Source of the DNA: a virus
IMG/VR virus record: IMGVR_UViG_3300034112_002980
Location: 1 to 22,890 of that record
DNA: 22,890 bases
Direction: 5' to 3' (one strand)
The position numbers were made by a program, and so were the translations under genes. A model generated the notes under the pieces. It did not search any database. It had not been told where the DNA came from and saw only the letters and a program-made list of their open reading frames with translations. Numbering within the stretch: position 1 is the first letter of the stretch; every line of letters starts with the position of its first letter. Shown here piece by piece: positions 14,330-22,890 of this stretch.

Positions 14330-14385
14330 TATTGTGGGAAGGCCGCTCGCGCAGGCGAGCCCTAGCGAGCTTGTTCAAGCGGCCT
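14330..14385 (+). promoter_or_regulatory. Leader module 1: TATTGT box and hairpin, with competing outer stem
   Basis: TATTGT (14330-14335) is followed after nine bases by GCTCGC-GCAG-GCGAGC (14345-14360), the spacing seen in the other modules. Here an alternative outer stem AGGCCGCT (14340-14347) with AGCGGCCT (14378-14385) overlaps the inner one, and a second GCGAGC copy follows at 14365-14370. The two folds are mutually exclusive, as in an attenuator. It precedes the first gene of the rightward block by about 20 bases. Confidence 0.5.
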
Positions 14386-14405
14386 GTAGTTAATCTTCTT
14401 GATCA

Positions 14406-14648
14406 ATGCCCACAGCTCCTCTCGCTCCAGACAGACTCCCTCTGCTCGAGCACAATGGAACAACGATCGAGGTGTACCAGCACCATGGTTATTCCAGGCC
14501 CGACAGAGGCCCCCTGCCTCCCAGCAGAATCCTTTACGCTGCTCGTGATCAAAATAACGAGCGCCATTGGAGAGGAAGCCTTGATGAAATCGAAAGCTTG
14601 ATTGACCGAGGCTTTGTCGTGGCAACGATTAGCGGAGGCAGTCTGTGA
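14406..14648 (+). CDS. Hypothetical small protein opening the rightward block
   Basis: An 80-residue protein starting MPTAPLAPDRLPLLEHNGTT, then IEVYQHHGYSRPD, an Arg/Pro-rich middle, and DEIESLIDRGFVVATISGG at the end. The 'EHNGxxIEVYQ' strand pair recalls small phage proteins of unknown role. It starts 20 bases after leader module 1 with no Shine-Dalgarno sequence, and its TGA overlaps the next ATG. Confidence 0.6.
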   Translation: MPTAPLAPDRLPLLEHNGTTIEVYQHHGYSRPDRGPLPPSRILYAARDQNNERHWRGSLDEIESLIDRGFVVATISGGSL

Positions 14649-14965
14649 TGGACAATGAAGAGCTGATCAGCCTCCTAAAGGAAATGGAAGCTATCAAAGC
14701 AAATCAACGCGCATTGTCCGAAAAGGAACAGCAATGCCGCGAAGATATTTTTGCTCTCATGCAAGACCTTGGCATTGACCAAGAGAAAAGCAACTATGGC
14801 AACATTCGCCTGCAGCGTAGAGCAGAAAAGGACTATGGTGAAGCCATTAAAATGCTAGAGCGCCAATTGAAAGAAGCCAAAAAACTGGCTGATGACATGG
14901 GCGACTATCAAATTAAAGGCTACAAAGAAAGCCTTGTTTACACTCCCCCAGTTGAGCTGTTTTGA
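14648..14965 (+). CDS. Coiled-coil hypothetical protein
   Basis: A 105-residue protein with a long N-terminal heptad region (LISLLKEMEAIKANQRALSE). The compact centre reads SNYGNIRLQRRAEKDYG, followed by a second helix (MLERQLKEAKKLADDMGDYQ) and KGYKESLVYTPP. The helix, strand pair, helix layout recalls Gp157-type siphovirus proteins, but no diagnostic motif is present. ATG 14648 overlaps the previous stop (TGATG). Confidence 0.6.
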   Translation: MDNEELISLLKEMEAIKANQRALSEKEQQCREDIFALMQDLGIDQEKSNYGNIRLQRRAEKDYGEAIKMLERQLKEAKKLADDMGDYQIKGYKESLVYTPPVELF

Positions 14966-15123
14966 CCGCACCATTAACCAAAGCGGAAGTCACTGCTCTT
15001 ATTGATCAAAAGATAAGAGAGCATGAAATTCGCATTGGCGTGATTAGCGGCCTTGCGGGAGTCTTGTTTATCGCAGGACTCTCTTATTTTCTTTCCATTG
15101 TTTACCTTGCTACCATCAGATGA
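14962..15123 (+). CDS. Small tail-anchored membrane protein
   Basis: A TTG start overlapping the previous TGA opens a 53-residue protein. It begins TAPLTKAEVTALIDQKIRE, a charged amphipathic helix. A C-terminal transmembrane segment follows, with GVISGLAGVLFIAGL and SYFLSIVYLA. It ends with TGA overlapping the next ATG. The tight two-sided overlap supports translation. The role is unknown. Confidence 0.55.
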   Translation: MTAPLTKAEVTALIDQKIREHEIRIGVISGLAGVLFIAGLSYFLSIVYLATIR

Positions 15124-15296
15124 GCGCCCCATTTATTCCTTTACCATTGCTCTCTGACAGAGAGTGGAAAGAGCTAAATGTGTTGCGCAAAGCCATTAGC
15201 GACAGCCCTTCAGCGGTGGTGCCAGAGCAGCAAGAGCGTTTTGCTGCATTGTTCGCTAGAAGCTTGCTTGGTAAAGGCGACAAGCCTTTAAAATGA
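15120..15296 (+). CDS. Hypothetical 58-residue protein
   Basis: ATGA overlap with the preceding gene opens MSAPFIPLPLLSDREWKELN, then a helical LRKAISDSPSAVVPEQQERF and FAALFARSLLGKGDKPLK. It is soluble and not recognised. It is translationally coupled within the four-gene run 14406-15296. Confidence 0.55.
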   Translation: MSAPFIPLPLLSDREWKELNVLRKAISDSPSAVVPEQQERFAALFARSLLGKGDKPLK

Positions 15297-15314
15297 TTTT
15301 ACTGCCCATTGACC

Positions 15315-16064
15315 ATGCCCCTTCCTGAAATTGACTTCCCGGACAAGGAGCAGCAATTGAAATATGGCGTGAAGGTGCTTCTGGAAGCTGGAATGACGCC
15401 TCAGCAAATTGAGCACATTCGCGACAGAGTGGGAGCAGGTCCGGGCAAGATTCCCTACACCAAAGAACTCACTGGATTGCGCCGGTATATGGTGCAGGAG
15501 CTTTTAGCGGCAAGTTTAAGCAACAGGCAAATTGCCGACATCTTGAAGCTAAGCAAAGAAACTGTTAGCGCCGATCGTCATCACAATCGCAACTTATGGA
15601 CTGCTGAAATCCTTAAGAGCCAAGACACTTGGCGGGCACGGCTAATCAAAGAACAAGGCGAACTCAAAGACAAAGCCCTCGAAAGCTTTGAACACAGCAA
15701 GCGCAAGAAAGTCACCACTTACAAGGAAGGGCCTGACGGCCCTGGCGAAACCATTGTGCGTATGGAAGAAAGTGCTGGCGAAAGCGGCTTCCTTGGCATT
15801 GCCCGTAGCTGTCTGGAGCAGCAGGCAAAGCTAATTGGCCTGTTTGATGTGAAGCCACAAACGGAAGAGAAGAGCGGCTACAAAGCATTCCTTGATAATT
15901 TAAGCAAGGAAGTTCGCAAAATAAAAGAAGCTGAAAGCAATAGTGAAGTTAGAGCCACTGCCATTGATGCTGAGGCTTATTTCGACGAACAAGGAGAGCC
16001 CACTGGTCCCAGCAAGCCTTTGCTATTCGCGAATAGCGAACAGGACGATGGAGAGGAAAGTTAA
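15315..16064 (+). CDS. HTH protein resembling phage small terminase subunits
   Basis: The 249-residue protein has an N-terminal helical region. A helix-turn-helix follows at residues about 55-85, reading ELLAASLSNRQIADILKLS then KETVSADRHHNRNLW. Next are a long charged helix (IKEQGELKDKALESFEHSKR), a polar loop and SCLEQQAKLIGLFDVKP. An HTH that senses 'SNRQIA' followed by a coiled-coil oligomerisation region is the usual plan of small terminase subunits. No large terminase gene is adjacent here, so it could instead be a regulator. ATG at 15315 is chosen over TTG at 15309. The leader (TTTTACTGCCCATTGACC) has no Shine-Dalgarno sequence. Confidence 0.55.
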   Translation: MPLPEIDFPDKEQQLKYGVKVLLEAGMTPQQIEHIRDRVGAGPGKIPYTKELTGLRRYMVQELLAASLSNRQIADILKLSKETVSADRHHNRNLWTAEILKSQDTWRARLIKEQGELKDKALESFEHSKRKKVTTYKEGPDGPGETIVRMEESAGESGFLGIARSCLEQQAKLIGLFDVKPQTEEKSGYKAFLDNLSKEVRKIKEAESNSEVRATAIDAEAYFDEQGEPTGPSKPLLFANSEQDDGEES

Positions 16065-16127
16065 TTATTTCTTAGCTTGACAGGCCCTCCCGCGCATCGC
16101 TACGCTTGATGGGACTGCTTTGTCTTG

Positions 16128-16601
16128 ATGAATTTTTCGTTTGATTCTGTGGGCAACTTCCTTCGTAAAGCAAAGGAAGCAAAAGCCAGCAAGCGAGCAG
16201 CAATTGACGAAGGGCTTTTTCCATTGCTCACCGACCCTTCCACCTTCGCCATTGCTCCTGACGCTGCTGACCTGCTCGAGAAAAGCCTAGAACGCTATGG
16301 GGACGAAGCTCTCAAGGCAATGGCCATTGTGGCCCTTGGCAAGTGGGTGGAGCTGCATGGCACTTGGCTCGAGCAGCACATGCTCAACGGCGCCATCCAA
16401 GAAGCCGTATTGACTGCCTGCGACATGAACAAACTCACGCAAGCCGTCAGGCTCATGGAGGACGTGGGAAGCTTTGGAGGGGACGACGACTACAGGGCAG
16501 CCATGCGTCAGCAAATCAATCAGGCCGTGCTGGAAGGGCTTGAGGAAGCTGGTAAAGAGCCTTCTGACATCTTCGACCCTTACACCGACCCGTTGCTTTG
16601 A
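16128..16601 (+). CDS. Hypothetical helical protein
   Basis: A 157-residue, mostly helical acidic protein. It has FLRKAKEAKASKRAAIDEGL near the N-terminus, DAADLLEKSLERYGDEALKA in the middle and AMRQQINQAVLEGLEEAGKE near the end. There is no membrane segment or known motif. It is preceded by 63 bases without a gene, containing GC-rich short inverted segments (CATC ... GATG). The next gene starts two bases after its stop. Confidence 0.6.
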   Translation: MNFSFDSVGNFLRKAKEAKASKRAAIDEGLFPLLTDPSTFAIAPDAADLLEKSLERYGDEALKAMAIVALGKWVELHGTWLEQHMLNGAIQEAVLTACDMNKLTQAVRLMEDVGSFGGDDDYRAAMRQQINQAVLEGLEEAGKEPSDIFDPYTDPLL

Positions 16602-16603
16602 TC

Positions 16604-16966
16604 ATGGACTCCCTCCCGCCCATGGTCACCATTTGCATTCCGCCAGTGCTGCGGAAGGAAGCAGAAGATTTAGTGGCCGAAAACCCTCCCGTGCATCCTG
16701 CCTGGCAGAAAGTGGCGCAGCGTGGCCGTCATTATTCTCTTCGCACATCCTCCATTGAAGACCTTGAAGAACTAGCCGACTGGGCCTATAGCTGGTTAAT
16801 GGAGCCTGGTATGCCCTTGGACAAGACCAAGCGACAAGCTTTTCAAAGCATCATCGCCAGAGCAGGCCGTCACGTTTTTCTGAAGCCCATTGGCAAGGGG
16901 CATTTCCTTGCAACTGGCTGGAAGCCGCCAAAGACTATAAGCAAGACTAATAACTCTGCCCCTTGA
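16604..16966 (+). CDS. Hypothetical protein
   Basis: A 120-residue protein beginning MDSLPPMVTICIPPVLRKEA. It contains a Trp-rich helix (LEELADWAYSWLMEPG) and a basic end (GRHVFLKPIGKGHFLATGWK). ATG 16622 is an alternative start. It begins two bases after the preceding TGA. No family is recognised; the C-terminal strand pair could bind nucleic acid. Confidence 0.55.
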   Translation: MDSLPPMVTICIPPVLRKEAEDLVAENPPVHPAWQKVAQRGRHYSLRTSSIEDLEELADWAYSWLMEPGMPLDKTKRQAFQSIIARAGRHVFLKPIGKGHFLATGWKPPKTISKTNNSAP

Positions 16967-16985
16967 CTCTGCCCCACTCTGCCCT
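16953..16985. repeat. Three direct copies of ACTCTGCCC
   Basis: ACTCTGCCCC occurs at 16953-16962 and 16966-16975 and ACTCTGCCCT at 16976-16985. The repeats span the end of one gene and the leader of the next, right up to its ATG. Replication slippage or a protein/RNA-binding site are both possible. Confidence 0.7.
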
Positions 16986-16987
16986 TG

Positions 16988-17359
16988 ATGATGGGCAAGT
17001 TCCTTCTCATTCCCTCCATGTCTTCCCGCATTAAAACCGAATCGTCTGGCGAAACCACTGCCTTCACTACTGACGGCAAGCTCGTCATGAACTTTGGCAA
17101 CCCTCACGTTGCATGGGGATTCTCCGTGAAAAGCCTTGAAGAATGGCTCATCACGCTTGAAGAGGCCATGTCAGTGATGCCTGTTTGCCATAGTCGCTCC
17201 ATTGAAACGCTTTATTTTTCCCTCAAGGCAGCACACAAGCGCCACCTGCAGGAGCATGAAGCAGTGATCAGCGAAGCCCCTACTGACGACGACCTCATGG
17301 CTTATCTCACTTCTTATGCTGCCGCAATGACTTGGGAAGCAATGGAAGGGAGGAAATGA
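16988..17359 (+). CDS. Hypothetical protein
   Basis: A 123-residue protein beginning MMGKFLLIPSMSSRIKTESS. It has a beta-rich N-terminal half (GKLVMNFGNPHVAWGFSVKS) and a helical C-terminal half (LYFSLKAAHKRHLQEHEAVI). Two consecutive ATG codons (16988, 16991) are possible starts. The leader consists of the threefold ACTCTGCCC repeat with no Shine-Dalgarno sequence. ATGA overlap links it to the next gene. It is not recognised. Confidence 0.6.
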   Translation: MMGKFLLIPSMSSRIKTESSGETTAFTTDGKLVMNFGNPHVAWGFSVKSLEEWLITLEEAMSVMPVCHSRSIETLYFSLKAAHKRHLQEHEAVISEAPTDDDLMAYLTSYAAAMTWEAMEGRK

Positions 17360-17532
17360 TTTCCCTGCCTGTTTGCATGCCCTGGGAGGTGACAATCAAG
17401 AACGATGGCAATGTGAATATATTGTCCATCCTCGCTCCCACTAGGGAAAAAGCTCGCATCATTGCAGAAGAGCTTTACCCTCATAGTCACTACGACATCC
17501 AGCTTCAGCCCGACTGGGACGACGCATCGTGA
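17356..17532 (+). CDS. Hypothetical 58-residue protein
   Basis: ATGA overlap opens MISLPVCMPWEVTIKNDGNV followed by an ISxLAPTREKARIIAEELYP-type helix and a Trp/Asp-rich end. A beta-alpha-beta layout 'vxIxxDGxV...A.T.EKAr.iAeelyP' is common in small phage proteins. GGAGG lies only two bases upstream, so initiation is probably by coupling. It is followed directly by a strong terminator. Confidence 0.55.
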   Translation: MISLPVCMPWEVTIKNDGNVNILSILAPTREKARIIAEELYPHSHYDIQLQPDWDDAS

Positions 17533-17675
17533 TCACTGGCTCCTTCGGGAGCCTTTTTCTTTGCCCATGAATGATCACCAGGAATGGGCTCTGTGGCATA
17601 AGCCCAATCATCATATTCTGGATCATTCCTCAGCCATCGTGCCAAACGCTCACGCTCGCGTTCTTGTTCAGTCAT
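17505..17675 (-). CDS. Small charged protein, antisense to neighbouring terminator
   Basis: A 56-residue protein starting MTEQERERERLARWLRNDPE followed by YDDWAYATEPIPGDHSW. The N-terminal Glu/Arg helix looks genuine. The C-terminal third is encoded by the complement of the terminator 17538-17562 and of the last 28 bases of the preceding gene, so it may tolerate any sequence. An upstream TATAGG (minus) could serve as -10. No family recognised. Confidence 0.45.
   Translation of the reverse strand: MTEQERERERLARWLRNDPEYDDWAYATEPIPGDHSWAKKKAPEGASDHDASSQSG
17538..17562 (+). terminator. Strong rho-independent terminator with UUCG loop
   Basis: GGCTCC-TTCG-GGAGCC (17538-17553) is followed by TTTTTCTTT. 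It starts six bases after the stop of the preceding gene and ends the transcript begun at 14330 or later. Confidence 0.9.
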
Positions 17676-18009
17676 TAGAAACTGGACAGCTTTCTATTGC
17701 GAGTCTAGCTGGCTTCCTATAGGCAAAAAAGAAGGGCCTTGCGGCCCTTCTTCCTTTGCTTGAGCTTCCGATGCCACAGCCTCCCTCCCAAAGGGGAGCA
17801 CTCCTCTCACTAGCCCATGCAATGCTAGGGACAGTCCTCGCGGAAAGTCCAGAGTGCTCAGCAGCGTCCACCCTTGCGGCGTCAGCGACGGGCCTTTCGG
17901 CCAGGACCAACTCAAGCTTGCAAATCATAGCACCACTACCAGCCACGGCAGCAAGCCTCACAATTGTGATACGGTAAACCTTGGTAGGGGCGACCCTCCG
18001 TAGTCTCAC
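17668..18009 (-). CDS. Doubtful leftward reading frame
   Basis: A 113-codon frame from GTG contains VYRITIVRLAAVAGSGAM and DAAEHSGLSARTVPS, which look mildly protein-like, and its stop overlaps the next leftward start by eight bases. Against it are a strong terminator hairpin inside the frame, leader module 2 at its start on the other strand, and a competing frame of similar length. It fills most of the 353-bp stretch 17676-18028, in which I see no other gene. Confidence 0.25.
   Translation of the reverse strand: MRLRRVAPTKVYRITIVRLAAVAGSGAMICKLELVLAERPVADAARVDAAEHSGLSARTVPSIAWASERSAPLWEGGCGIGSSSKGRRAARPFFFAYRKPARLAIESCPVSND
17729..17752. terminator. Bidirectional terminator-like hairpin
   Basis: AAGAAGGGCC (17729-17738) and GGCCCTTCTT (17743-17752) pair perfectly over 10 bp around TTGC. 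The minus strand continues with a run of T (TTTTTTGCC), the plus strand with TCCTTTGC. It can stop transcription from both sides in a region without an assured gene. Confidence 0.75.
17970..17997 (+). promoter_or_regulatory. Leader module 2: TACGGT box and AGGG-GCGA-CCCT hairpin
   Basis: TACGGT (17970-17975) is followed after ten bases by AGGG-GCGA-CCCT (17986-17997), a 4-bp stem with a GCGA tetraloop. A pyrimidine-rich leader (CACTTCTTCTTTTTCTTTCC) then runs to the ATG at 18029. Confidence 0.55.
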
Positions 18010-18028
18010 TTCTTCTTTTTCTTTCCTG

Positions 18029-18385
18029 ATGCTTTTTCGTTTTCTTCTTTCAGTTTCCGTTGCCTTAGGCGCTCTGGTGCCTGCTGCTGCGGAGGCTAAG
18101 TCTCGCTGCGGCGAAGCCAGCTTCTACGGGCACGGTGACGGCTTTGCAGGCCAGACAATGGCCAATGGTCAGCCAATGAACCCGCGAGCCATGATCACTG
18201 CCCACCCATCGCTTCCGCTCGGCACCCGCTTGAGAGTGGTGCGCAATGGTCGGAGCGTAATCGTCAAGGTGACTGATAGAGGCCCTTGGTACGGTGGTAG
18301 GATTCTCGACCTGAGCTATGGCGCTTTTGCTCGCATCGCTCACCCTGGTAGCGGCCTGGCAACGGTCTGTTATCAGGTGGTGTAG
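18029..18385 (+). CDS. Secreted RlpA-like double-psi beta-barrel protein
   Basis: The 118-residue protein has a signal peptide (MLFRFLLSVSVALGALVPAA, cleavage likely after AEA at 23) and then a single RlpA-type double-psi beta-barrel. GEASFYGHGDGFAGQTMANG is followed by TAHPSLPLGTRLRV and the conserved VKVTDRGPW and RILDLSYGAF. RlpA proteins cleave peptide-free (denuded) glycan as lytic transglycosylases or bind the septal wall. The DRGP aspartate is present. It lacks a SPOR domain and is shorter than bacterial RlpA. It has its own leader module and terminator, so it is a single-gene unit. It may help lysis, remodel the wall during infection, or act outside the cell. Confidence 0.85.
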   Translation: MLFRFLLSVSVALGALVPAAAEAKSRCGEASFYGHGDGFAGQTMANGQPMNPRAMITAHPSLPLGTRLRVVRNGRSVIVKVTDRGPWYGGRILDLSYGAFARIAHPGSGLATVCYQVV

Positions 18386-18423
18386 GCACCAAGGTGGCCT
18401 AAGGGACAATGGAGGAAACCAAG

Positions 18424-18452
18424 GGCGCTTCGCATGGGGCGCCTTTTTCTTT
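18424..18452 (+). terminator. Terminator of the rlpA-like gene
   Basis: GGCGC (18424-18428) pairs with GCGCC (18439-18443) across a 10-base loop and is followed by TTTTTCTTT. It lies 38 bases beyond the stop. Confidence 0.7.
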
Positions 18453-18540
18453 GGGCCTAGCCAGCTTTGTAACGAAAAGCAACTGAGCTCTTGCGAGATC
18501 CGGCTGGCTCGTTATCGTGCGCAGGCATCGCCTCTTAACC

Positions 18541-18705
18541 ATGCAAAGCATCATGCTGCCGCTGCTCACGCTCGCAAGCCTGCTGGCCTTAGCCACGCTA
18601 CCCGTGCAGCAGCAAGACGACCTCACCGCCCTCCGCAAGTGCATGGCACTCCACCCCGAACGCTACTGCAGGCTCACGCATGCCCCTAGTACAGTTGCAC
18701 CATAA
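18541..18705 (+). CDS. Small secreted protein
   Basis: The 54-residue protein starts MQSIMLPLLTLASLLALATL, a signal sequence or membrane anchor. A short mature part follows with two Cys residues (TALRKCMALHPERYCRL). A disulphide-bonded exported peptide is plausible. A GTG at 18517 is an alternative start. Upstream lie TATCGT (18513-18518) and AGGC-ATC-GCCT (18523-18533), an imperfect version of the leader module. The function is unknown. Confidence 0.5.
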   Translation: MQSIMLPLLTLASLLALATLPVQQQDDLTALRKCMALHPERYCRLTHAPSTVAP

Positions 18706-18750
18706 GCAACGCTAATAGGTAAAGGGCTTCCCAAAAGGCTCTCGATGGGC

Positions 18751-18779
18751 AATCATAGTTTCAACGGGGCGCGAGCCTC
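18751..18779 (+). promoter_or_regulatory. Leader module 3: AATCAT box and GGGGC-GCGA-GCCTC hairpin
   Basis: AATCAT (18751-18756) is followed after nine bases (AGTTTCAAC) by GGGGC-GCGA-GCCTC (18766-18779). All five pairs form, one as G-U. A pyrimidine-rich stretch ending TTCCCTCCC leads to ATG 18799. The hexamer is a poor -10, so this copy is recognised mainly by the hairpin and the flanking TTTCAAC. Confidence 0.5.
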
Positions 18780-18798
18780 ACCATTCATCTTCCCTCCC

Positions 18799-19077
18799 AT
18801 GGACAAAACCGCTTCCGTTAAAGCTTTTATCCGCGATGCAGGCGCAGCAATCGTCTCCGTGCAGTTCGTTAAGGCTGATGGCACCCTGCGCAAACTGCAG
18901 TTCAATCCTCTCGACTCCTGCGAAATCAAGGGTACTGGCCATGCCCTCAAGAAGCCCGGCATCGTTCGCTGCCGCGACTTCACCATTGCCCGCAACAAAG
19001 GCCAAGGCGCTTGGCGCTCGTTTGATTGCGAGCGTGTGGTGAGCATCAAAAGCAATGGCAAAGAGCTGGTGTTCTGA
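18799..19077 (+). CDS. Small SH3-like hypothetical protein
   Basis: A 92-residue protein starting MDKTASVKAFIRDAGAAIVS. The core reads VQFVKADGTLRKLQFNPL, then GIVRCRDFTIARN, WRSFDCERVVSIKSNGKEL. 'F.K.DGTLR...' followed by a strand ending 'RSF..ERVVsI...G' is the pattern of small phage SH3-like proteins (DUF2693-type); the assignment is tentative. It follows leader module 3 with a Py-rich leader and no Shine-Dalgarno sequence. Confidence 0.6.
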   Translation: MDKTASVKAFIRDAGAAIVSVQFVKADGTLRKLQFNPLDSCEIKGTGHALKKPGIVRCRDFTIARNKGQGAWRSFDCERVVSIKSNGKELVF

Positions 19078-19079
19078 CC

Positions 19080-19262
19080 ATGGCAGTTCTTGAGCGCGAC
19101 AACTGCTGGAGCCTGTGGGCCTTGACTGACGGCCGTTGGAACATTCTTGATTCCGGCGCCGATCGTAATGCCCTCGAGCGCCAAGCCCGAAGCCTGCAGG
19201 CCGTGTTTGCCACCAAGACCTTCATGGTGGTGCAGGGCACACAGAGCCCAGGGCGTTTGTAA
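19080..19262 (+). CDS. Hypothetical 60-residue protein
   Basis: A small protein beginning MAVLERDNCWSLWALTDGRW, then NILDSGADRNALERQARSLQ and FATKTFMVVQGTQ. Two short strands, a helix and a final strand suggest a compact fold, with a 'W.LwaL.DGrW...' start. It begins two bases after the previous stop and is followed by a terminator hairpin. It is not recognised. Confidence 0.55.
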   Translation: MAVLERDNCWSLWALTDGRWNILDSGADRNALERQARSLQAVFATKTFMVVQGTQSPGRL

Positions 19263-19273
19263 ACAATTGTTGC

Positions 19274-19296
19274 GGAGGGGCTGACCAGGCCCCTCC
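19274..19296 (+). terminator. Hairpin upstream of leader module 4
   Basis: GGAGGGGC (19274-19281) pairs with GCCCCTCC (19289-19296) over 8 bp with a 7-base loop. There is no U-run; the next module's box starts six bases later. It lies 12 bases after the preceding stop. Confidence 0.6.
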
Positions 19297-19302
19297 TGCC
19301 TG

Positions 19303-19331
19303 TACATTACTTGCAACGGGCCGCGAGGTCC
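19303..19331 (+). promoter_or_regulatory. Leader module 4: TACATT box and GGGCC-GCGA-GGTCC hairpin
   Basis: TACATT (19303-19308) is followed after nine bases (ACTTGCAAC) by GGGCC-GCGA-GGTCC (19318-19331), five pairs including one G-U. The leader CACCATTCCTCAGAATC runs to ATG 19348. Confidence 0.55.
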
Positions 19332-19347
19332 ACCATTCCTCAGAATC

Positions 19348-19566
19348 ATGAAGCATTATCCCTCTTACGAGGCTCGCCTAGAAGCCGACCGGCAAGCCCA
19401 GCATTCTGGCTATGGCATCAGGAAGTTCCATTGCGCTGACGGCACCATCAAATGGGAAGCCTATGGCTGGGAGCGCCTGACCGAGCTTTCTACGCACGAC
19501 ACCTCCTACGGCTTGTTCGACCACAAGTGGGAAGCTGAATACTATTTCAACTCCATCGTTCATTGA
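19348..19566 (+). CDS. Hypothetical 72-residue protein
   Basis: A protein rich in aromatic and charged residues: MKHYPSYEARLEADRQAQHS, then GYGIRKFHCADGTIKWEAYG and HKWEAEYYFNSIVH. The 'DGTIKWEAY' strand and final helix look like a small alpha/beta fold. It starts 17 bases after leader module 4 and is followed two bases later by the next gene. The function is unknown. Confidence 0.6.
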   Translation: MKHYPSYEARLEADRQAQHSGYGIRKFHCADGTIKWEAYGWERLTELSTHDTSYGLFDHKWEAEYYFNSIVH

Positions 19567-19568
19567 TC

Positions 19569-19859
19569 ATGAAATATATTTCTCGCGAAGAACTCTTGGC
19601 CGTAGGCGCTTCACCCTCTTGGGCCGATGCCACTGTTTTCACTGGCAAGCTTTATGATCAAGCCTTTTCTCAAAGCTGCCGCAATGGCAGCAGCGCTGGC
19701 GGCTTTGCCTCTGGGGAGTTCAATGGAAAGGAAGTAAGCTGCTGGATTGTTCCTCGGTGCATGGGCGGCGGTCGCTGGAGCAGCACCACGCTCTGGAAGG
19801 TCAATGGCAAGCGAGTGGCACAGAAGAAGCTGGTCGATGCCGTTTGTGAAGCTTTGTGA
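19569..19859 (+). CDS. Hypothetical 96-residue protein
   Basis: Begins MKYISREELLAVGASPSWAD. It has a Ser/Gly-rich centre containing two Cys (SQSCRNGSSAGGFASGEFNG, VSCWIVPRCMGGG) and the ending NGKRVAQKKLVDAVCEAL. Four Cys in total could bind metal, but they do not form a standard motif. It is co-transcribed with the previous gene (two-base gap) and followed by a UUCG-loop hairpin five bases after its stop. Confidence 0.6.
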   Translation: MKYISREELLAVGASPSWADATVFTGKLYDQAFSQSCRNGSSAGGFASGEFNGKEVSCWIVPRCMGGGRWSSTTLWKVNGKRVAQKKLVDAVCEAL

Positions 19860-19864
19860 CAAGC

Positions 19865-19880
19865 AGGGGCTTCGGCCCCT
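19865..19880 (+). terminator. UUCG-loop hairpin upstream of leader module 5
   Basis: AGGGGC-TTCG-GCCCCT (19865-19880) has the same stem and loop as the minus-strand terminator at 5590-5605. It is followed by CTCGCCTG and then TATTGT. Confidence 0.65.
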
Positions 19881-19888
19881 CTCGCCTG

Positions 19889-19916
19889 TATTGTTCCTTT
19901 GTCCGGCGGCGACGCC
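19889..19916 (+). promoter_or_regulatory. Leader module 5: TATTGT box and GGCG-GCGA-CGCC hairpin
   Basis: TATTGT (19889-19894), ten bases, then GGCG-GCGA-CGCC (19905-19916), all pairs Watson-Crick. The leader CTTTCCTCTTCTCCC is pyrimidine only and runs to ATG 19932. Confidence 0.6.
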
Positions 19917-19931
19917 CTTTCCTCTTCTCCC

Positions 19932-20192
19932 ATGGCAACCATTCCTACTGTCCATCTCAACGGCACTGGCTTCACTGAGCTGCGCGACGGTTACGCCGCT
20001 GCTTACGACGCCATTGACAAGGCCATTGACGCCTTGGCGAAGGCGGAACTTAACGGAAGGGATTTTTATCCGCAGGCCCCTGGCGCCTACTACCAGGCTC
20101 GTGCTGAACGCGACGATGCCTTTGACCAGCTTCGCGCTGTTCAGTCTTATGTGGGCGAGATGCTCGCTGGCATTTGTGATCAGCGGCGCTGA
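19932..20192 (+). CDS. Hypothetical helical protein
   Basis: This 86-residue protein begins MATIPTVHLNGTGFTELRDG. Helices follow (YAAAYDAIDKAIDALAKAEL), then a conserved-looking NGRDFYPQAPGAYYQARAER and VQSYVGEMLAGICDQR. The 'NGtg...L...Y..A..Ai..a......NgRDfYp' pattern recurs in phage small proteins of unknown role. It is a single-gene unit between two hairpin-promoter modules. Confidence 0.65.
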   Translation: MATIPTVHLNGTGFTELRDGYAAAYDAIDKAIDALAKAELNGRDFYPQAPGAYYQARAERDDAFDQLRAVQSYVGEMLAGICDQRR

Positions 20193-20220
20193 TTGTGACG
20201 ATAAGCAACAGTGATCGTTC

Positions 20221-20244
20221 AGGGGCTGGCAACAGCCCCTTTTT
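20221..20244 (+). terminator. Rho-independent terminator upstream of leader module 6
   Basis: AGGGGCTG (20221-20228) pairs with CAGCCCCT (20233-20240) around GCAA and is followed by a T-run (TTTTT including 20240-20244). It is a standard terminator 28 bases after the preceding stop. Confidence 0.85.
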
Positions 20245-20248
20245 GTCG

Positions 20249-20278
20249 TATTGTTCTCTCAGTCGGGCAGCGATGCCT
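20249..20278 (+). promoter_or_regulatory. Leader module 6: TATTGT box and GGGCA-GCGA-TGCCT hairpin
   Basis: TATTGT (20249-20254), ten bases, then GGGCA-GCGA-TGCCT (20265-20278), five pairs with one G-U. ATG 20285 follows after six bases (CCTCTC). A second in-frame ATG at 20273 is buried in the stem. Confidence 0.6.
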
Positions 20279-20284
20279 CCTCTC

Positions 20285-20812
20285 ATGACCATCACCCTTG
20301 ATTCCTTCCCCTCTGTTGATCGCTACGGCTTTCCCTTGCAAGTGTGCGGACGTTGCGGCGGCTCTGGCGAGCACAGCTACAACCAGCTCCATGGCAGCGT
20401 TTGCTACGGCTGTGATGGCCACGGCGTGCGCCACACCAAGAAGGCCCACAAGGAATTTCAAGATTGGGCTTATGCCCTTAAGCGCCAGCGTGAAGCCATT
20501 GGCCATTCTTTGCAAGTGGGTGATGAACTGGCCATCCTTGAGGCTATAGGAGTGATGAGTACCAAAGTGGTTGGCTGGCATTCCATTGCTTCTATTGAAA
20601 TCACCGACCAAGAATGTGGCTGGAGCATCACTCGCGCTCCTGATGGCACCGAACTGCGCACTCCCACTTGCTGGACCATCATCATCACCTTTGACGATGG
20701 TGAGCGGGTGGAGGCCTCCACTAACAGCGTCTTCCGTAGGAAGGGCTGGGTGGATCCAGCTCCCTATGTAGAGCGCAGCCAAGTGAAGCGTCGCATCAAA
20801 TCTAAAGTGTGA
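20285..20812 (+). CDS. DnaJ-type cysteine-rich protein
   Basis: The 175-residue protein has an N-terminal zinc-binding half-module like the DnaJ central domain. CGRCGGSG (Cys21, Cys24) and CYGCDGHG (Cys40, Cys43) are two CxxCxGxG repeats. After a charged linker helix it has a beta-rich C-terminal half (VGDELAILEAI, VVGWHSIASIEI, CWTIIITFDDGE) and a basic tail (QVKRRIKSKV). No J-domain is present, so it is not a chaperone of DnaJ type; a DNA- or protein-binding role is possible. It is a single-gene unit starting seven bases after a leader hairpin. Confidence 0.7.
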   Translation: MTITLDSFPSVDRYGFPLQVCGRCGGSGEHSYNQLHGSVCYGCDGHGVRHTKKAHKEFQDWAYALKRQREAIGHSLQVGDELAILEAIGVMSTKVVGWHSIASIEITDQECGWSITRAPDGTELRTPTCWTIIITFDDGERVEASTNSVFRRKGWVDPAPYVERSQVKRRIKSKV

Positions 20813-20823
20813 AGCATTGTTAC

Positions 20824-20844
20824 AGGCCCCTTTCCCAGAGGCCT
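20824..20844 (+). terminator. Hairpin upstream of leader module 7
   Basis: AGGCC (20824-20828) pairs with GGCCT (20840-20844) across an 11-base loop; no U-run follows. It is weaker than its counterparts, but the spacing of nine bases to the next TATTGT is the same. Confidence 0.5.
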
Positions 20845-20853
20845 CTCTTGCTC

Positions 20854-20882
20854 TATTGTTCTTTCAACGAGCCGAGAGGCTC
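20854..20882 (+). promoter_or_regulatory. Leader module 7: TATTGT box and GAGCC-GAGA-GGCTC hairpin
   Basis: TATTGT (20854-20859), nine bases (TCTTTCAAC), then GAGCC-GAGA-GGCTC (20869-20882), a perfect 5-bp stem with a GAGA tetraloop. ATG 20903 follows after 20 bases. Confidence 0.6.
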
Positions 20883-20902: not shown

Positions 20903-21079
20903 ATGCAAACCGTCGCTCTCTTCCGGCTCTTTGAACAAACCCCCGATGGGGCCATTCGCCAGTGTGGCTTCACTGGCCCAGACCATGAAGAAGCCCTGCT
21001 CTGGCAAAAGGAAATGCAGCAGTGTTTCCCGGCCAATCGCCACTGGATACGACCAGTGTTCAATCATGCAGGTGCCTAA
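20903..21079 (+). CDS. Hypothetical 58-residue protein
   Basis: MQTVALFRLFEQTPDGAIRQ followed by CGFTGPDHEEALLWQKEMQQ and CFPANRHWIRPVF. A strand, a helix and a final strand, with the helix start 'tgpdheEAllWqkEM', suggest a compact fold typical of cyanophage small proteins. It heads the last rightward operon after leader module 7. It is not recognised. Confidence 0.6.
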   Translation: MQTVALFRLFEQTPDGAIRQCGFTGPDHEEALLWQKEMQQCFPANRHWIRPVFNHAGA

Positions 21080-22532: not shown

Positions 22533-22593
22533 GGTCCGGCTGCGAGTGTAACTGAGGTCCGGCTAGTGCTGTGTAACGCGCGCGGGCCCGGCT
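22533..22593. repeat. Short dispersed repeat GGTCCGGCT
   Basis: GGTCCGGCT occurs at 22533-22541 and 22557-22565, with a variant GGCCCGGCT at 22585-22593. Spacings are 24 and 28 bases. The copies mark the transition from phage-like sequence to the tandem repeats. The 95 bases before them (22438-22532) hold no gene; a 9-A run (22462-22470) and TATAGT (22489-22494) are the only marks seen. Confidence 0.6.
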
Positions 22594-22602
22594 GCGCGCC
22601 TA

Positions 22603-22777
22603 TACGCGCGCACGCGCACCCACGCGCGCACGCGCGCCCACGCGCGCACGCGCACCCACGCGCGCACGCGCGCCCACGCGCGCACGCGCACCCACGCGCG
22701 CACGCGCACCCACGCGCGCACGCGCGCCCACGCGCGCACGCGCACCCACGCGCGCACGCGCGCGCACGCGCGCACGC
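22603..22777. repeat. 18-bp tandem repeat of alternating CG/CA steps
   Basis: About 9.7 head-to-tail copies of the 18-mer CACGCGCGCACGCGC[A/G]CC. The variable base follows the order A,G,A,G,A,A,G,A,G. The first copy starts TA instead of CA, and the ninth ends CG instead of CC. Purine-pyrimidine alternation over most of 170 bp favours Z-DNA. Open frames through it encode only Arg-Ala-His-Pro repeats and are not genes. Confidence 0.9.
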
Positions 22778-22790
22778 TGAGCTGTGACGG

Positions 22791-22890
22791 GCTTGTGGGC
22801 GTCGTTGGGCGTCGTTGGGCGTCGTTGGTGCTTGTGGGGGCTTGTGGGGGCTTGTGGGGGCTTGTGGGGGCTTGTGGGCGTCGTTGCGTG
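22791..22890. repeat. 10-bp-period G-rich repeat at the window edge
   Basis: Two related decamers, GTCGTTGGGC (three copies) and CTTGTGGGGG (four copies, then a variant), run in register to the last bases. The plus strand is G-rich towards the edge. No gene is present. It may continue outside the window. Confidence 0.85.

Follow-up and report, generated by a model that had tools for sequence, protein, structure and literature searches.

We describe here a compact promoter–hairpin module that is repeated before different genes of a putative cyanophage, the IMG/VR virus record IMGVR_UViG_3300034112_002980, which was analysed over its entire length of 22,890 bases (hereafter the window). Each copy consists of a TATTGT-like hexamer, a spacer of 9–10 nucleotides (nt), a short hairpin closed by a G[AC]GA tetraloop, a C/U-rich leader and an ATG. 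The module is a real family with six copies in the window, all on the plus strand. It recurs in viral relatives, where the arms of the stem covary and the loop is strongly preferred. We argue that the hexamer very probably serves as a promoter and that the hairpin would lie at the extreme 5' end of the transcript, where it may shield the mRNA from decay.

A repeated module in the window and in its relatives

The six copies in the window, numbered from 2 to 7, are as follows.

17970–17997, plus strand: module 2, TACGGT, 10 nt, AGGG(GCGA)CCCT at 17986–17997; RlpA-like gene with ATG at 18029
18751–18779, plus strand: module 3, degenerate AATCAT, 9 nt, GGGGC(GCGA)GCCTC at 18766–18779; gene with ATG at 18799
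19303–19331, plus strand: module 4, TACATT, 9 nt, GGGCC(GCGA)GGTCC at 19318–19331; predicted +1 A19315; gene with ATG at 19348
19889–19916, plus strand: module 5, TATTGT, 10 nt, GGCG(GCGA)CGCC at 19905–19916; predicted +1 G19901; gene with ATG at 19932
20249–20278, plus strand: module 6, TATTGT, 10 nt, GGGCA(GCGA)TGCCT at 20265–20278; predicted +1 A20261; gene with ATG at 20285
20854–20882, plus strand: module 7, TATTGT, 9 nt, GAGCC(GAGA)GGCTC at 20869–20882; predicted +1 A20866; gene with ATG at 20903

The initial annotation had counted seven units of this architecture. Six of them stand, and the seventh, at 14345–14360, belongs to a different, larger predicted RNA element that is described below. 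Its tally of five GCGA loops and one GAGA loop is borne out in the six family hairpins, and the distance of 9–10 nt between hexamer and stem holds with TATTGT at 19889, 20249 and 20854, TACGGT at 17970, TACATT at 19303 and AATCAT at 18751; for module 3 the detection script chose TAGTTT at 18756 rather than AATCAT. The loop had been called GNRA-type: it is a tetraloop, specifically G[AC]GA and not a generic GNRA.

Hairpins with any tetraloop at the spacing of the module are common in shuffled sequence (17 observed against a mean of 10.35 and a maximum of 16 in shuffles), which would be expected if the modules were chance hairpins in GC-rich intergenic sequence. Against this, G[AC]GA hairpins behind a hexamer agreeing with TATTGT at 4 or more of its 6 positions number 4 on the plus strand and 0 on the minus strand, while 100 dinucleotide shuffles of the plus strand gave a mean of 0.06 and a maximum of 1; modules 3 and 4 fail this hexamer test and are outside the 4 counted. 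The excess over shuffles is significant because of the loop, since the any-tetraloop count is hardly above them. A comparison with shuffled sequence, proposed earlier as a check, thus comes out clearly for the G[AC]GA hairpins alone. As these hairpins also recur in relatives, we reject chance for the family, for which it is hardly credible, although an isolated weak copy might be accidental.

Two protein searches retrieved 12 and 13 relative loci; in these, the module precedes homologous genes as well as other small ones. In Synechococcus phage S-CBS4, five copies were detected by script, all within the last 4 kb of the record. The strongest control of the analysis came from a hexamer-free pattern, made of the end of the spacer and the hairpin with mismatches allowed at two pairs. 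In viral data it gave 95 matches in 68 stretches, or 69 distinct sites. All five pairs are standard at 69/69 of these, TAnnnT lies at the expected place at 63/69, and the start of an open reading frame (ORF) follows 10–23 nt downstream at 67/69. Four of the six sites without TAnnnT are of the module-3 type or similar, with a degenerate hexamer, and the other two (L038 and L049) look like chance. The identical pattern in 84,980 species genomes matched 21 cellular stretches with 19 distinct sites, of which none has TAnnnT, 2 have an ORF start and 7 are fully paired. A host-derived element was also rejected on this comparison: the titles of the 21 cellular stretches name no cyanobacterium (one says only 'bacterium'), and none of the 19 sites carries the hexamer.

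Leaders chosen by their downstream gene gave a similar picture. Among 82 distinct homologous leaders of the window genes, 54 have a G[AC]GA hairpin with a stem of 4 bp or more (8/10, 18/24, 4/10, 19/32 and 5/6 for modules 2, 3, 4, 5 and 7; the module-6 gene family was left out of these counts), where shuffles predict 0.00–0.14 leaders per family. In four further families, F1–F4, which were picked since modules precede them, it is found in 37/39. By eye, several of the hairpin-less leaders directly abut the preceding gene.

A search of this genome and related cyanophages with a model of the module, as the initial annotation had advised, matched the window, S-CBS4 and other records. In 15 records of 43–74 kb, S-CBS4 included, the model (R1) gave 1–7 matches per record at an E-value limit of 0.5; every match below E 0.03 falls, within a given record, in a single region no longer than 4.3 kb, and weaker matches elsewhere in the record occur in two of them (G007 and G014). 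At E up to 1, R1 had no match in S-CBS2 (whole, searched as two stretches), S-CBS1 (first 30,000 of 30,332 bases), S-CBS3 (33,000 of 33,004), KBS-S-2A (40,000 of 40,658) or P-SSP7 (44,900 of 45,176), and R1 can miss divergent forms, having found 3 of the 5 copies seen by script in S-CBS4, 2 of 4 in L132 and 5 of 6 in the window. In the window, R1 misses module 2 even at E up to 1, and module 3 matches only from model position 12 (E 7.7e-4). Modules 4 (E 1.6e-5), 5, 6 and 7 (E 2.2e-8) are themselves in the seed of the model.

Promoter, leader and stem of the predicted transcript

The promoter was studied in a set of 116 copies with a hexamer matching TATTGT at 5 or 6 positions and a spacer of 7–13 nt. 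A -35 hexamer (at least 5/6 TTGACA) stands at exactly 17 nt in 12 of them, several of which are related in sequence; among the remaining spacings of 10–25 nt, 13 and 14 occur once each and all others not at all. Counting from the end of the hexamer, base seven is the predicted +1; it is A in 88 copies, G in 21 and C in 7, so that 109/116 have a purine, and the -1/+1 dinucleotide is CA in 84 and TG in 12 (96/116). Ahead of the stem, the predicted 5' end reads AAC in 64 copies and GTTC in 10. The spacer between hexamer and stem is 9 nt in 73/116 (mean 9.21, standard deviation 0.94), which places the stem 3 nt from the predicted +1 in 73/116 and 2–4 nt from it in 105/116, the spacers having been preselected at 7–13 nt. 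By sequence alone, a -10 of the form TAnnnT and, where present, a TTGACA at 17 nt are those of a sigma70-type promoter. We take the hexamer to be, very probably, the -10 element of a sigma70 promoter, and transcription would start 3–4 nt before the hairpin. The earlier proposal of a -10 element followed by a 5'-terminal hairpin therefore finds support in the 17-nt subset and in the purine that follows a pyrimidine at the predicted start.

The promoter evidently could function without the hairpin, which would then be an add-on. Of 121 homologous leaders, drawn from the gene families above and thus again leaving out that of module 6, 66 have a hexamer of at least 5/6 and 55 do not. Ten of the 66 are hairpin-less by script. 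On inspection, six of the ten are plain, with leaders of 15–19 nt; the other four are one rlpA leader with a misplaced hexamer and three near hairpins (two U3 and one U7). At L018 16129 and at similar sites in L033, L043, L006 and L081, TATTGT-like promoters with TTGTT-type starts and leaders of 15–19 nt have no hairpin. These promoters precede homologous genes and are natural controls.

Downstream of the hairpin, the leader is rich in pyrimidines. Its composition up to the AUG in 164 distinct copies is C 0.42, T 0.31, A 0.20 and G 0.08, and the last 15 nt of module leaders are 73% C+T. The distance from hairpin to AUG is 16.5 ± 3.7 nt in the 116 copies, and it falls below 13 nt in just 5/164. 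A Shine–Dalgarno (SD)-like core at -18 to -4 was found in 1/116 module leaders against 20/94 other genes of S-CBS4, the 94 being taken from 105 annotated genes after leaving out the module genes and about 7 others at the ends. Upstream of the hexamer, 114/164 copies have a hairpin with at least 5 G-C pairs, and 103 of these end 6–11 nt before the hexamer. With a terminator-like hairpin in most copies, many units look insulated from the preceding gene. In the window, such a stem-loop is seen before module 5, and similar ones lie upstream of modules 4, 6 and 7.

19865–19880, plus strand: terminator-like stem-loop before module 5, AGGGGC TTCG GCCCCT

The initial annotation had read the differing stems, with their G-U exchanges, as covariation. 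This reading is upheld in relatives: pairing is retained where mismatches were allowed, wobble is strand-specific and a permutation test is positive. For that test, 85 sites were taken by loop and hexamer only, and the 36 distinct arm pairs among them match at 3.89 of 5 positions, compared with a mean of 2.58 and a maximum of 3.17 in 10,000 re-dealings of the arms. Five of the 36 arm pairs match at 0–1 positions and look mis-registered through an overlapping loop match. At the pair for which the hexamer-free pattern admitted G-T as well as A-C, the 69 viral sites have 15 G-T and no A-C, and the 19 cellular sites have 9 A-C. In a wider, pairing-selected set, 5'G-3'U wobbles number 89 against 4 of U-G, compared with 35 against 23 in the upstream terminator-like hairpins. 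A 78-row alignment has both-side changes at all five pairs (78 cells) and a covariation score of 0.656 against 0.286 shuffled, but as its rows were preselected for pairing it serves as illustration, and the permutation test and the pairing of the 69 sites carry the argument. Its rows came from the 164 distinct copies, reduced to 95 by script, to 83 by removing 12 by hand (rlpA-type copies, module 2 among them, are included in the 12) and to 78 by removing 5 mis-registered rows. The hairpin energies average -7.2 kcal/mol, with extremes of -13.8 and 0.3.

Loop preference and alternative explanations

With the loop left free, the loci fetched by protein search together with S-CBS4 have 40 distinct sites with hexamer, hairpin and ORF start, of which 29 have a G[AC]GA loop. 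Among the homologous leaders with a good hexamer, 56/66 have a hairpin, with G[AC]GA in 55 and GCAA in one; at exact TATTGT sites with initiator and ORF start, 106/144 have a hairpin, 98 of them with G[AC]GA and 3 with GCAA. The 55/56 and 98/106 are inflated, as many loci were fetched by a pattern holding that loop, and 29/40 is free of this bias. A looser scan of the protein-fetched loci gave 66 sites, many resembling in-gene hexamers, with 18 hairpins of which 13 are G[AC]GA; alignment rows are probably counted among its 47 loci. The strong upstream hairpins, 101 in number, mostly carry other loops (GCAA 12, GAAA 12, UUCG 8 and GCGA 2, with GAGA absent among the 30 loops listed). One terminator-like hairpin with a GAGA loop was observed in L018. 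A hairpin kept for stability only should drift among these loops, and the module is not sequence-independent as 5' stabilising stem-loops are described to be. Such a strict loop also hints at a specific partner.

Taken together, we propose that the module would be a host-type sigma70 promoter whose transcript begins about 3–4 nt ahead of a small G[AC]GA hairpin. The predicted mRNA reads 5'-AAC or GTTC, hairpin, a C/U-rich, SD-less leader of about 16 nt and AUG, and the expression cassette would run from the neighbour's terminator through the sigma70 promoter and the 5' hairpin to an open C/U-rich strip and the AUG. Cyanobacteria possess RNase E and RNase J (PMC10989914). Most probably the hairpin would keep the 5' end structured and so slow the attack on module mRNAs by host nucleases with a preference for a free 5' end, namely RNase E and the 5'-3' exonuclease RNase J, and a specific partner might read the preferred loop, possibly together with this protection. 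The sequences show the architecture, its strand, the covariation, the loop preference and the distribution; the start of transcription, the protection and the partner are deduced from these. We regard a promoter with a 5'-terminal hairpin that shields the mRNA from 5'-dependent decay, its loop hinting at a partner, as evenly poised between right and wrong. Several points weigh against it. The copies share ancestry, so their counts are not independent events, and the tight spacer is partly built in by the acceptance of 7–13 nt, though its peak at 9 nt is not. The designated pairs exceed a probability of 0.8 in just 69/116 predicted leaders, and one hairpin energy is positive. Plain 5'-end protection leaves the loop preference unexplained because such protection is described as sequence-independent. 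Finally, cyanobacteria lack close homologues of RppH (PMC10989914), which makes the 5'-dependent decay route there uncertain.

The leading rival gives the specific partner the main role, and the two may coexist. Here a phage or host RNA-binding protein would recognise the G[AC]GA loop, perhaps with the G-U pair, and jointly switch translation or stability. Such an operator would account for a loop that is strongly preferred though stems vary, for the common A/C swap at loop position 2 when the G-to-A change at position 3, which would keep GNRA, is rare (the GCAA loops, 1/56 and 3/106), and for the 1–7 copies per record that lie largely in one gene cluster. On the other side, no candidate protein was identified, common descent of the cassette could itself hold the loop uniform, and the extreme 5' end would be an unusual place for a translational operator; we think the operator possible, with the balance tipped against it. 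Doubtful to a slightly greater degree is a viral mRNA tag, in which a dedicated RNA-binding protein would read the 5' G[AC]GA hairpin, and tagged messages would be recognised, protected or switched on together when untagged host messages are not. The pyrimidine-rich leader could instead make the module mainly a translation element, a landing strip of the S1 type for SD-less initiation that a hairpin at its edge keeps open. The scarcity of SD-like cores, the C+T content of the leader and the rarity of hairpins close to the AUG all agree with this; hairpin-less promoters with short leaders exist, and the hairpin–AUG distance varies (standard deviation 3.7 nt) where 73/116 copies share one, partly preselected, hexamer–stem distance. 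We consider it unlikely.

Two further alternatives are much less probable. The N boxB of the phage lambda nut site, likewise a small leader-RNA hairpin whose loop is GNRA-like, has a pentaloop and boxA as its partner, and acts through terminators. The GNRA-like loop of the module presumably recalls boxB, and the spacer loosely resembles boxA, a weak visual likeness. An antitermination site of the nut or put type, in which the nascent hairpin modifies RNA polymerase, is nevertheless improbable: the terminator-like hairpin just upstream in 114/164 copies points to insulated units and not to read-through, and a -10 element with an initiator explains the spacer better. Even less probable is an operator palindrome at the DNA level for a repressor or activator. 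An inverted repeat with a 4-nt centre at a near-fixed distance from the -10 would fit it, but G-T is kept and A-C absent on one strand, and the centre is conserved while the arms vary; this candidate was rejected as the wobble asymmetry disfavours it.

Neighbouring features, known systems and biological meaning

The hairpin at 14345–14360 with a GCAG loop, copy 1 of the initial annotation, was rejected as a member of the family. The best predicted fold of the sequence around it is an RNA of about 50 nt with a long outer stem, whose conserved core recurs in other contigs with different outer stems.

14336–14390, plus strand: structured RNA candidate, not a module member; outer stem GGCCGCT/AGCGGCC and conserved core

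Homologues were found in L004, L018, L019, L032, L064, L127, L128 and L130, where the outer stem varies compensatorily (GGCCGC/GCGGCC, GCGCC/GGCGC, GCACCG/CGGTGC) around the core CGCGCARGCGAGCCC..AGCGAGCTT. The core pattern matched 13 viral stretches, with 9 distinct sequences among the relative loci. The best Rfam match of the window copy has E 0.87, and a scan of the whole window at the gathering score gave 0 matches, hence no known Rfam RNA family. A tRNA search of the window found none.

Megablast of the window against 50,697 phage records gave no match. Its primase/helicase is 56.7% identical to the S-CBS4 homologue over the full length, and its gene order, judged by eye, resembles that of S-CBS4; we infer that the window is an S-CBS4-like cyanophage. 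Of the genes behind the six modules, the RlpA-like one alone has a Pfam match above the cut-off, and the PHROG matches of the others are families of unknown function. The product of the module-6 gene (20285–20812) has weak, sub-threshold matches to zinc-ribbon or DnaJ-type CxxC domains. For the product of 15309–16064, a PHROG match (E 9.4e-12) and the annotation of the S-CBS4 homologue are both named 'Rnase E'; Pfam gives just a sub-threshold LuxR-type helix-turn-helix, and no solved structure backs the name, which is probably a misnomer, with the protein not tied to the module. The end of the contig is repetitive, with CGCGCGCACGC-type arrays and CTTGTGGGGG/GTCGTTGGGC arrays in 22580–22790 and 22795–22890; this may reflect either an error of assembly or a terminal region of low complexity.

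Each ingredient of the module has a precedent. The 5' stem-loops of E. coli ompA and T7 gene 10 mRNAs are reported to protect from RNase E independently of sequence, and 21 bp of the T7 phi10 promoter suffice to form such a stem-loop (PMC2254391). The module is like these in having a stem-loop at the predicted 5' end of the mRNA and unlike them in being a repeated cassette with a preferred loop; moreover, T7 uses its own polymerase and its gene 10 has a strong SD, whereas the module has a predicted sigma70-type promoter and is SD-less. The cluster K mycobacteriophages have SAS, a conserved 13-bp sequence at translation starts, and ESAS, paired 17-bp inverted repeats with their own consensus (PMC3203893). 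As described there, they too recur ahead of some genes, which belong to different families and lie in the non-structural half of the genome, and they are rare in hosts. The module differs in its variable stem, its preferred loop and the lack of an SD after it: ahead of its translation starts, some 16 nt from the AUG, lies a hairpin and not a conserved 13-bp sequence, and an SD-like core occurs in 1/116 copies. In Prochlorococcus, according to PMC9692554, a cyanophage raises host RNase E, and antisense RNAs are thought to shield phage transcripts. The module would likewise be a route for cyanophage mRNA to resist host RNase E, whereas the T7-like P-SSP7, without an R1 match in the stretch searched, is proposed to do so by antisense RNA. 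No title, abstract start or passage obtained in the literature search describes a repeated promoter–hairpin cassette with a covarying stem and a preferred G[AC]GA loop.

The hairpin module is a trait of a virus group that infects small cyanobacteria and has a cultured member in S-CBS4. It would give this cyanophage lineage a compact cassette from promoter to start codon that is reused before unrelated genes. If the protective reading is true, the 5' hairpin would be another solution to the problem of host RNase E. The module would offer a route to testing how phage mRNA survives in hosts that possess both RNase E and RNase J but no close RppH homologue, as cyanobacteria do, and may also serve gene expression in cyanobacteria as a short part for the 5' leader.

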